Below, piece by piece: positions 27,340-31,338 of a DNA stretch of 36,988 nt (position 1 is the stretch's first letter; each line of letters begins with the position of its first letter). This DNA comes from Desulfotignum sp. (lineage in GTDB: Bacteria; Desulfobacterota; Desulfobacteria; Desulfobacterales; Desulfobacteraceae): assembly GCA_021737445.1 (NCBI GenBank), contig JAIPDY010000002.1, forward strand, positions 1-36,988, given 5' to 3'. The position numbers were made by a program, and so were the translations under genes. Under the pieces are notes generated by a model. That model worked only from the letters and a program-made list of their open reading frames with translations. It had not been told where the DNA came from and did not search any database.

Positions 27340-27447
27340 TCATTTCCACGCTGGCCTCTCTTTTTCCCCTTCAATGCTGTCATACACGGCCTTGGTCAGT
27401 ATCTGGGTGTTTCCTGATTGACTGGCATATAAAATCAGTGATGTCAT
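27340..27447 (-). pseudogene. Flavodoxin-family N-terminal fragment (35 aa)
   Basis: 'MTSLILYASQSGNTQILTKAVYDSIEGEKE' with the FMN phosphate-loop motif SQSGNT and AGGAGG ribosome-binding site; ends at a stop after 35 codons. Confidence 0.7.
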
Positions 27448-27610
27448 CTGTTTCCTCCTGTTGGTATGCGTACGTTCCACATCCGGTCAGCCGGTCTGGC
27501 TTTAACAACAGCAACAATACCAAACCCGTTATCGGTTGTATCTTCATATCGTCTCCTGAAATAAAGGAATCGTTTCTTATCGCCTTTTTTTTATAATCAT
27601 CGCATACTGA

Positions 27611-27880
27611 TCACGATTTCGCAATGCAACGCCTGTGATTTATGATGATGACAAATTCAGGAATACCGCCCATCTGGAAGGGGCGATTCCCATGAGCGAG
27701 TTTCTCAGAATGAAGCCGGACCTGGCATTGGATACCCGTATCATCTTTTACTGAGGGTGACCCGGCGACAGCTCTGCGGCAAGGATTGCCGCACAATACA
27801 TGGCAGACGGGTACACACGGATTCAGGTGCTGGATAACGGGATAGCCGGCTGGAAGGAAGCAGGTTTCAACATCCTGTAA
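27611..27880 (+). CDS. Rhodanese-like domain, candidate selenoprotein with two in-frame UGA (Sec) codons; 5' end undefined or truncated
   Basis: Frame reads 'SRFRNATPVIYDDDKFRNTAHLEGAIPMSEFLRMKPDLALDTRIIFY(UGA)G(UGA)PGDSSAARIAAQYMADGYTRIQVLDNGIAGWKEAGFNIL*'; UGA at 27752-27754 and 27758-27760, TAA at 27878-27880; homologues typically have FYCxCPxxxSAARxA. Confidence 0.7.
27775..27793 (+). promoter_or_regulatory. Candidate bacterial SECIS apical hairpin
   Basis: TGCGGCA-AGGAT-TGCCGCA: 7-bp perfect stem, 5-nt loop with G at loop position 2; loop begins 21 nt after the second UGA and 27 nt after the first. Confidence 0.6.
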
Positions 27881-28039
27881 TCTGATGATTTATGGACTGC
27901 CGGATCTGCAGGTCATCTTGTTGCTCTTATGTACCTGATTTACTGCTTGAATTTTCCTTGAAAAGGTGGTAGTAGATCTCGCTTTCAAAAAGAGATTTAC
28001 AAACAATGTAACCGGAAATGGTAACAGGAGATAGACTGG

Positions 28040-29659
28040 ATGCGCGTGGTCCTCGTTTTTCCGCCCAGGGCCAGCGCTACCTATGTGCCCCTGGGAATTG
28101 CATCTTTGGCGGCGTTCATTGCATCGGCCGTGCCCGGTACCGGGGTCCGGCTGGCTGATCTGAACATTGATACCTGGATCCGGCTTGCAAACGCCGACCC
28201 CCATGGCCAGGATCTCATGGATTTTGTCCGGGGCAAAACCGGCACCTTTACGGATCCCGGCCAGACCCTTTCAATTAAACCGGTATGGGACCGCCTCAGA
28301 AGACAGATGTCTCTGCTGTGCCGCCAGGCTGAAACCTTTGTTGCCACCGGGGAGGCGGATACCCTCTTTTTGTCACTGCTTGGCAGCCATACCCGGCAGA
28401 TCATGGCATCTGATCCCGAACTGGTGTGCATTTCCGTGCTTTTCCCTGAGCAGATGCCTTTTGCCGCTGCCCTGGCCCGCACCCTCAGGCAGGCCATGGG
28501 AAAAAAATCCGGCACCCGGTGCCGGGTGGTGATGGGCGGCGCCATGATGTCAGCCCTGTCGGTGCAGGACCTGCTGACTGCAGTCCCGGAAATAGATGCC
28601 GTTGTCAGCGGTGAGGGGGAAGATGCAGTGGCCGCCCTTTGCACCGGCATACCATTTTCAGATATCTCAGGGCTGACGTTCAGGCAGGAAAATGAGATCA
28701 GAACCAATCCCAAATCCCCGGCCATTTCTCTCAAAAACCTTGCAGCCCCTGATTTTTCACAGCTGCCCCTGGATGCCTATTTCAATCCTGTCCCGGTACT
28801 GCCGGTGCTGTTTTCCAGGGGATGTGCCTGGCGCAAATGCCGGTTCTGCTCCCACAACTTCTCCTTTGGCGGCTATCGCAGAAAACCGGTTGAAGCATTT
28901 GTGTCGGAACTGGCTGAATATCAAAGGACTCTGGGGGCTTGCCATTTTTATTCAGCAGATGAATATATTCTGCCCCGGGACATGGATGCCATCTGTGAGG
29001 AGATCCTGGCCAGGGGGCTGAAGATCTCTTTTCATATTCTGGGCAAACCCACGGCCGACTGCACCCCCGGCAGCCTGGCCCTGTGGTCCGCCGCCGGATG
29101 CCGGTGGATCGGCTGGGGCATTGAATCCGGTTCCCAGCGGCTGCTGGATCTGGTCAACAAGGGCACCTGTGTCCGGGATGTCCAGACCGTGCTGAAAGAT
29201 TCGGCTGCCGCCGGCATTTCCAATCTGGGACTGATGATTTTCGGCCTTCCCACCTCCACCGACCAGGACCTGGACCAGACCCTGGCATTTCTAAGCGATG
29301 CCTATGATAGTCTGGACGGTCTGACCGCCAGTGCCTTTGTGCTTTTTGACAACACCCATTTTGCAAGGAACGCTTACCGGTACGGCATGCACATTGACGG
29401 ACCCGGCATACTGATCAACAGCGGCAGCTCCGCTGTCCGGAGTACCCGCCTCAAATTCAGGGAACTGGCATCCAGCGGCTCGCTGCGGTTGCCCCGTGGG
29501 GCATTGGAGGTCTCCCGGTGGCAGCGGTACCGCAGATGGCTGGGTGAGGTGCCCCTGCTGGAACAGCTGCCCCCGGAACACTGGCTGATTCATGTAAGCG
29601 GCAGATGGTTGCCTGCGGTGCCTGCCCTGCCGTTTTCTTCAGACACGGAGACTGCCTGA
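28040..29659 (+). CDS. B12-binding domain radical SAM protein
   Basis: N-terminal B12-binding-like 'VVLVFPPRASATYVPLGIASLAAFI', cluster motif 'FSRGCAWRKCRFCSHN', 'WGIESGSQRLLDLVNKG'; ribosome-binding site AACAGGAGATA. Confidence 0.88.
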   Translation: MRVVLVFPPRASATYVPLGIASLAAFIASAVPGTGVRLADLNIDTWIRLANADPHGQDLMDFVRGKTGTFTDPGQTLSIKPVWDRLRRQMSLLCRQAETFVATGEADTLFLSLLGSHTRQIMASDPELVCISVLFPEQMPFAAALARTLRQAMGKKSGTRCRVVMGGAMMSALSVQDLLTAVPEIDAVVSGEGEDAVAALCTGIPFSDISGLTFRQENEIRTNPKSPAISLKNLAAPDFSQLPLDAYFNPVPVLPVLFSRGCAWRKCRFCSHNFSFGGYRRKPVEAFVSELAEYQRTLGACHFYSADEYILPRDMDAICEEILARGLKISFHILGKPTADCTPGSLALWSAAGCRWIGWGIESGSQRLLDLVNKGTCVRDVQTVLKDSAAAGISNLGLMIFGLPTSTDQDLDQTLAFLSDAYDSLDGLTASAFVLFDNTHFARNAYRYGMHIDGPGILINSGSSAVRSTRLKFRELASSGSLRLPRGALEVSRWQRYRRWLGEVPLLEQLPPEHWLIHVSGRWLPAVPALPFSSDTETA

Positions 29660-29830
29660 ACACATGCCATCACAGGTCTGCTGCAGCCGGAAACAGGTAA
29701 AAAATACAGATACTGAATCTGCAAAAACTGTGCGCATCATTCATGCCGGTTTTTCAGCAGTCTGGGTTCTGAAAATTTTTTTATTCCGGATTTAAAATCT
29801 TTAAAAATTTGTTGTTTTTTCCTTTTGTCA

Positions 29831-29858
29831 TTGCTTGTAAAATTCATGGGTATAAAAT
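29831..29858 (+). promoter_or_regulatory. Candidate sigma70-type promoter TTGCTT-N16-TAAAAT
   Basis: In an AT-rich leader 44 nt before the mttB-like start. Confidence 0.35.
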
Positions 29859-29901
29859 AAAAAAATATTATAACTTCGGAATGTTAAAAAGGAGACGTTT
29901 C

Positions 29902-31338
29902 ATGGGCATGCACACTGATGAACTGTATTTCAAACCCAGGCTGCAGGTGATCAACCAGGACCAGATGGGGCAGATCCACATGGCCACACTGGATGTGCTG
30001 GAGCACACCGGTATTAAACTTACCCATCCCAGGGCCCAGGCGCTGCTGTCAGGGGCCGGTGCCAGGGTTGAAAAGGACCGTGTAAGGATTCCTTCCTGGA
30101 TGGTGGAACAGGCCATCCGGCAGGCACCCAAAAGAATAGTGCTTGGCAGGCGCACAGGAGAGCGTACCGTGATCCTGGAGCGGGACAAATCCTGGTTCGG
30201 GCCCAGCCTGGACTGCATCGATTACATGGACCCGGCCACACACCAGCGCAGCCGGTTTGAAAGCCGGCATGTGGAGGTCACGGCAGCCCTGTGCGACGCT
30301 TTGCCCGGGTTTGACTGGTGCATGACCATCGGCATGGCCGATGATGTACCGGCGGACACGGCAGACCGGATTGTGGCCAGAAAAACCCTGCAATTTTGTG
30401 AAAAACCCCTGGTGTTCTGCTGCAAGGACACCAACAGTGTGGCAGACATCTATGAAATGGCCCTGCTGCTGTGCGGCGGAAAGGACAATTTTGAAAAAAC
30501 CCCGTGCATTGTACACTATTCCGAGCCCATCTCCCCGCTGGTGTATTATGATCCCGCAGTGGACAAGATCCTTTTTTGTGCTGAAAAAGGCATCCCCCTG
30601 ATCAATTTTCCCGCCCCCCAGGCCTGCGGAACTGCGCCGGCCACCTTTGCCGGCACCATTGTCCAGGCCAGTGCTGAATCATTGAGCGGCCTGGTCATGC
30701 ACCAGCTGGCCAATCCGGGTGCCCCGTTTATTTACGGTGCCTTTACCACCATCATGGACATGAAGACCTCAATCTTTTCCTACGGGGCCATTGAGTTGAG
30801 CCTCATGACCGCGGCCCTGGCCCAGATGGCCCAGCATTACCAGCTGCCTTTTTTCGGCACAGCCGGTGCCACGGATGCCAAGTTCTGTGATGCCCAGGCC
30901 GGGGCGGAAGCCGCATTCCAGTGTCTGAGCGCTGCAGCCGCAGGTTCCGGCCTGGTGCATGACTGCAGTTCCTGGATGGACCACGGCAATCTGGTGTCTC
31001 CCGAATTCATGGTGCTGGTGAATGATATTGTGACATCAGTCAAACACTATATGGAGGGGATTGCCGTCACACAGGAGACCCTGGCCCTGGATATTATCGA
31101 TAAGGTCGGCCCGGGCGGGCATTATCTCCGGGAAAAGCACACCATGGATCACTTCAGGAAGATCAAATATTCGGATCTGTTTGAACGTCAGATCCATGAG
31201 AAATGGAAAAACAACGGGGCCAGAAAACTGGAGCAGCGCCTCCAGGAGCTGACTTTGGAAAAGATGAAGCACCGGCCGGCACCTTTATCAGAAGCAATCA
31301 TCAAAGAACTGGACCGTATGCAGGCGGCCTGGAAATAG
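29902..31338 (+). CDS. Trimethylamine methyltransferase (MttB) family protein, non-pyrrolysine type
   Basis: MttB-like: 'ATLDVLEHTGIKL', 'PAPQACGTAPATFAGTIVQASAESLSGLVMHQLANPGAPFIYG', C-terminal 'GGHYLREKHTMDHFRK'; no internal amber codon; start chosen after AAAAAGGAG. Confidence 0.85.
   Translation: MGMHTDELYFKPRLQVINQDQMGQIHMATLDVLEHTGIKLTHPRAQALLSGAGARVEKDRVRIPSWMVEQAIRQAPKRIVLGRRTGERTVILERDKSWFGPSLDCIDYMDPATHQRSRFESRHVEVTAALCDALPGFDWCMTIGMADDVPADTADRIVARKTLQFCEKPLVFCCKDTNSVADIYEMALLLCGGKDNFEKTPCIVHYSEPISPLVYYDPAVDKILFCAEKGIPLINFPAPQACGTAPATFAGTIVQASAESLSGLVMHQLANPGAPFIYGAFTTIMDMKTSIFSYGAIELSLMTAALAQMAQHYQLPFFGTAGATDAKFCDAQAGAEAAFQCLSAAAAGSGLVHDCSSWMDHGNLVSPEFMVLVNDIVTSVKHYMEGIAVTQETLALDIIDKVGPGGHYLREKHTMDHFRKIKYSDLFERQIHEKWKNNGARKLEQRLQELTLEKMKHRPAPLSEAIIKELDRMQAAWK

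Follow-up and report, generated by a model that had tools for sequence, protein, structure and literature searches.

A rhodanese-like reading frame with two UGA codons in its active-site loop raises the question of whether such a gene encodes a protein with two selenocysteines (Sec, U) or is simply decaying. The frame lies in a 36,988-nt stretch of a Desulfotignum sp. contig, referred to here as the window. Comparison with related genomes indicates that the window very probably holds a 5'-truncated, non-functional copy of a gene whose intact relatives encode a stand-alone rhodanese of about 105 residues with putative Sec64 and Sec66.

Reading frame of the window copy

The retained gene and its codons of interest are as follows:

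27638..27880, + strand: retained part of the U-x-U rhodanese gene (residues 26-105 and the stop), placed by homology to relatives
27752..27754, + strand: UGA 1 (putative Sec64), on the site of the canonical catalytic Cys of rhodaneses; TGA in 21 of 21 intact relatives, position taken from alignment to solved rhodaneses
27758..27760, + strand: UGA 2 (putative Sec66), a Sec position used also by C-x-U relatives
27878-27880, + strand: stop codon TAA of the rhodanese frame, read in the sequence

Read from 27611 to the stop, the frame translates as SRFRNATPVIYDDDKFRNTAHLEGAIPMSEFLRMKPDLALDTRIIFYUGUPGDSSAARIAAQYMADGYTRIQVLDNGIAGWKEAGFNIL. The active-site loop is FY-U-G-U-P, with the UGAs on both chalcogen positions. 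A sequence-only reading of this DNA had described this frame, both TGA positions and the TAA, and the Pfam Rhodanese match (PF00581) of the truncated copy agrees with it (33.9 bits; gathering cut-off 22.2). The start of its segment, 27611, has to be moved: homology starts at about 27638, and 27611-27637 is intergenic sequence joined by a deletion. The retained frame carries no further stop and keeps both UGAs and the hairpin described below. Its sequence has decayed little by substitution: four changes are found in no relative (two non-synonymous, two synonymous), too few for assessing decay or dating the loss. No second copy of the rhodanese gene was found in the source assembly, which is 89% complete, so an intact second copy could be missing from it.

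Intact relatives

The two-TGA protein was found in 22 of 86 genomes of the same family, the window's own included, and the others are 59-90% identical to the window copy. These 21 intact relatives, from other Desulfobacteraceae, are full-length, at about 103-105 codons, and all have FY-U-G-U. They begin M...RISAADAK...LLVCIYDDDKF; a GGAGG-type ribosome-binding site precedes most of them, and Cys25 is invariant in the family. Named carriers of the intact gene include Desulfotignum, Desulfobacula and Desulfospira joergensenii. Median pairwise dS among the 21 is 1.7 and dN/dS is 0.12. Their 2205 codons include 42 TGA, every one at codon 64 or 66, which excludes chance.

One candidate explanation was decay of an ordinary Cys-x-Cys gene in which both TGAs arose as chance nonsense mutations, as a truncated copy amid gene remnants might suggest. 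It was ruled out, since the same two TGAs stand in 21 intact, constrained relatives, and the hairpin covaries; we give it practically no credence. The sequence-only reading had likewise thought random decay improbable, and these relatives, with the same two TGAs and TGA nowhere else, bear it out.

A wider subfamily of 86 members spans Desulfobacterota, Nitrospirota, Planctomycetota, Acidobacteriota and others. It comprises 55 C-x-U, 28 U-x-U (window copy counted) and three C-x-C proteins. The earlier proposal that the UGAs fall on active-site Cys positions holds, as each of the two sites is Cys or Sec in homologues, with Sec at both in 27 further members; its FYCxC as the common homologue motif does not, the commonest being FY-C-x-U. 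A separate multi-rhodanese protein (L036, G048:C789) has two successive FYCGGxTU-KLSHKSA motifs, each with an in-frame UGA, and is a candidate multi-Sec rhodanese of a type other than the U-x-U family.

A single hairpin downstream of the two UGAs

27775..27793, + strand: bSECIS-like hairpin UGCGGCAA-GGA-UUGCCGCA, based on covariation in relatives, synonymous-codon shuffles and energy

An ungapped alignment of 44 subfamily genes shows a six-pair hairpin 3' of UGA 2. In these genes 92% of the hairpin cells are paired; column shuffles give 75% and slid versions 23-63%. Double-sided changes number 46, versus 17 in shuffles. Two of the pairs link third codon positions and covary (UA 17/CG 13/GC 13; CG 24/AU 16). 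For wobble-wobble covariation of this kind, protein constraint alone is an insufficient explanation. Synonymous-codon shuffles never matched the observed pairing in either the U-x-U or the C-x-U group. The hairpin is absent from all three C-x-C homologues.

The published bacterial SECIS model places the apical loop 16-37 nt from the UGA (PMC13188914, Fig. 2). We used this distance, a G within the first two loop positions and the model energy of -7.5 kcal/mol for comparison. The window hairpin (-11.9 kcal/mol) has the loop GGA, with the apical G in place, located 28 nt past UGA 1 and 22 nt past UGA 2. In the U-x-U genes the loop starts 27-28 nt past UGA 1 and 21-22 nt past UGA 2. Both distances lie inside the 16-37 nt range, so a single hairpin is compatible with each UGA. 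Considered individually, five of the 28 U-x-U hairpins fall slightly short of the model's energy.

UGA 2 lies at the same distance from the hairpin as it does in C-x-U genes, which places the SECIS for UGA 2 and could mean that Sec is inserted there only, with UGA 1 serving as a regulatory stop or being read as another residue (Cys, Trp). We consider this improbable. UGA 1 is kept in all 21 intact relatives despite a dS of about 1.7, it falls inside the model's range, all other subfamily members have Cys where it stands, and Cys and UGA have been exchanged at position 64 more than once on the tree. Insertion of Sec at both UGAs remains the preferred reading.

The source genome also carries the Sec machinery, which the sequence-only reading had named as a check. 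tRNA-Sec (74 bits), selA (595 bits) and selD (349 bits) score over their cut-offs. The selB match reaches 226 bits, under its cut-off of 242, and starts at profile position 67 because its reading frame runs into a contig end. The genes that a bacterial selenoprotein requires, selA, selB, selC and selD, are present.

Loss of the gene start in the window

The orthologous locus of a Desulfotignum MAG (G068, L039) was compared with the window by local matches, as a global alignment misplaced the upstream part. It aligns as three pieces (window 27504-27590, 27586-27646 and 27638-29765), which in G068 are set apart by about 441 and 263 bp. The junctions and the gene that anchors the locus are:

27586..27590, + strand: other junction, with about 441 bp absent relative to G068; remnant of a sugar-dehydrogenase-like reading frame
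27638..27646, + strand: deletion junction ATTTATGAT, a 9-bp direct repeat, with about 263 bp missing between the copies relative to G068
28040..29659, + strand: B12-binding/radical SAM protein, syntenic 3' neighbour and locus anchor, outside the selenoprotein

The ATG of the rhodanese gene, its ribosome-binding site and about 25 codons lie within the gap of about 263 bp. The earlier caveat that the segment could be a 5'-truncated relic is thereby confirmed, the start region being deleted relative to the orthologous locus. This junction was seen in the window only; in our judgement, repeats of just 9 bp would not readily mislead an assembler. The junction of about 441 bp is unlikely to be an assembly artefact, because the contiguous state of 27506-27646 is common to the window and a second genome (G065). 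A third genome (G069) is without the rhodanese gene at the same site. The G065 state and the absence in G069 indicate that the locus varies between related genomes.

The window copy has neither a start codon with a ribosome-binding site nor a complete domain. Its first possible start is GTG 27635, which lacks a Shine-Dalgarno sequence and follows an in-frame TGA at 27608. From the predicted fold, strand 1 and helix 1 are gone, as is most of strand 2. The open frame, the retained UGAs and hairpin and the mere four unique substitutions would suit a gene that still functions, as an N-terminally shortened selenoprotein read from GTG 27635 or inside another transcript. With the ribosome-binding site, ATG and first codons deleted and a substantial part of the fold missing, we regard this as very improbable. 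The window copy is probably a dead member of its family that has lost its start.

Several observations were made on the flanks. The start of a lipoprotein-like gene (MKIQPITGLVLLLLL...) lies at 27504-27550 on the - strand; the gene is complete in G068 (L039), at 185 aa, and in the window its frame enters unrelated sequence, making it another remnant. A short frame at about 27340-27447 on the - strand (MTSLILYASQSGNTQILTKAVYDSIEGEKERP) resembles a flavodoxin N-terminus by eye and is probably a further gene remnant. An MttB-family trimethylamine methyltransferase-like protein (Pfam MTTB, 307 bits) is found at 29809-31338 on the + strand. In another relative (G066, L013/L042), an intact rhodanese gene has an internal fragment of the radical-SAM gene (matching window 29146-29213) directly after it, so that the flank is rearranged there too.

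Origins of the U-x-U motif

The Desulfobacteraceae U-x-U proteins form one clade (support 100/99). Outside it, U-x-U is found in three further lineages as well as in two Nitrospiraceae and in one Desulfonatronospira, which has a C-x-U near-twin. On the 85-row tree the U-x-U label has to change six times; well-supported branches demand only two changes. With 105 columns the tree is short and resolves poorly, so that it makes several origins of U-x-U likely without fixing how many. Two Desulfonatronospira MAGs carry near-identical orthologues (L137/L142, tree distance 0.03), one with UGA and the other with TGT at the first of the two active-site positions; this recent Cys/Sec exchange is useful for asking what the second Sec adds.

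Comparison with known selenoproteins

A 2026 selenoprotein catalogue describes five rhodanese forms, with motifs UxxS, UxxG, CxU, UxxG and UxxxxU (PMC13188914). No U-x-U rhodanese is found in that catalogue or in NCBIfam, and the open-access literature, to which the search was confined, yielded no U-x-U or two-UGA bacterial rhodanese; 'UXU' occurs there for animal SELENOP only. The nearest curated model is NF041203 (rhodanese_LYCAU), listed as form 3, C-x-U, in the catalogue table (PMC13188914). It shares with the U-x-U family a single rhodanese domain and a Sec two past the catalytic-Cys position, but has one Sec and belongs to another subfamily. Against its cut-off of 115 bits the window copy scores 41.1 and intact U-x-U proteins 40-46; the best E-value over 32 scanned members is 1.5e-19. 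Closer still are uncurated C-x-U 'LVCAYDD' rhodaneses (such as L038, L089 and L114), which share the subfamily, the hairpin and Sec66 with the U-x-U proteins and have Cys at 64.

TsoB, which is rhodanese/DsbD fusion-like (NF045694, UxxxxU), also combines rhodanese homology with two Sec, but it is a much larger fusion (model of 572 positions) with another Sec spacing, and matches reach at most 20 bits. The UxxU bacterial selenoproteins (Prx-like, MerP-like and FmdB-like; PMC13188914) have two nearby Sec in unrelated folds and at wider spacing. The single-domain rhodaneses GlpE and YgaP are alike in fold and length (TM 0.67-0.76) but have no Sec and 27-30% identity. Animal SELENOP likewise has two nearby Sec in one U-x-U motif, in an unrelated fold, and the animal SECIS sits in the 3'-UTR. 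Given its absence from the catalogue and scores far under the NF041203 cut-off, the U-x-U rhodanese family seems undescribed, with the window copy as a dead member of it, whereas rhodanese selenoproteins as such are known.

Fold and proposed chemistry

The AlphaFold model of the G068 orthologue is a rhodanese fold (pLDDT 87.5, TM 0.76 to GlpE), and alignment to solved rhodaneses puts position 64 on the canonical catalytic Cys site. From the alignments, hairpin and tree we think it likely that a single SECIS hairpin directs Sec insertion at two UGAs one codon apart, giving a diselenide-capable U-x-U motif that arose several times from C-x-U. In the proposed mechanism, SelB recruited by the one hairpin would insert Sec at both UGAs in turn. 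U64 would accept sulfane sulfur/persulfide or an oxidant, U66 would resolve the U64 adduct as a diselenide, and a thiol reductant would re-open the U64-U66 diselenide. In the window lineage, deletion between the two 9-bp repeats took away the gene start.

A redox or sulfane-sulfur relay is the likeliest chemistry for the pair, judging from sequence. In the main alternative, U-x-U would serve the intact protein for binding or trapping soft metal ions instead of for sulfur transfer or redox exchange. C-x-U, U-x-C and U-x-U motifs of animal SELENOP are reported to bind Cd (PMC11818150), and Cys25 too is invariant here. We consider metal binding unlikely, although less so than the other alternatives above: the pair sits in the active-site loop of the rhodanese, where U64 takes the place of the catalytic Cys, and conserved metal-resistance neighbours were not found at the loci examined. 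The gene neighbourhood itself is not conserved; neighbours vary by genus and the most widespread neighbour cluster occurs in seven of 19 loci. The neighbourhoods therefore do not decide between a redox/sulfur relay and metal binding.

Implications

The majority of catalogued bacterial selenoproteins contain a single Sec. Adding another UGA one codon on should raise the risk of premature termination, and the existence of the family suggests that Sec at both rhodanese chalcogen sites brings a gain over the Cys-Sec pair. Standard gene callers halt at the first UGA, so U-x-U proteins are probably shortened or missed in annotation. A conserved two-UGA family with one hairpin, apparently of more than one origin, is nature's own test of the reach of a single SECIS/SelB complex and of the number of times it can act. 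Desulfospira joergensenii, in culture as DSM 10085 and carrying an intact gene (L102), opens this question to experiment.
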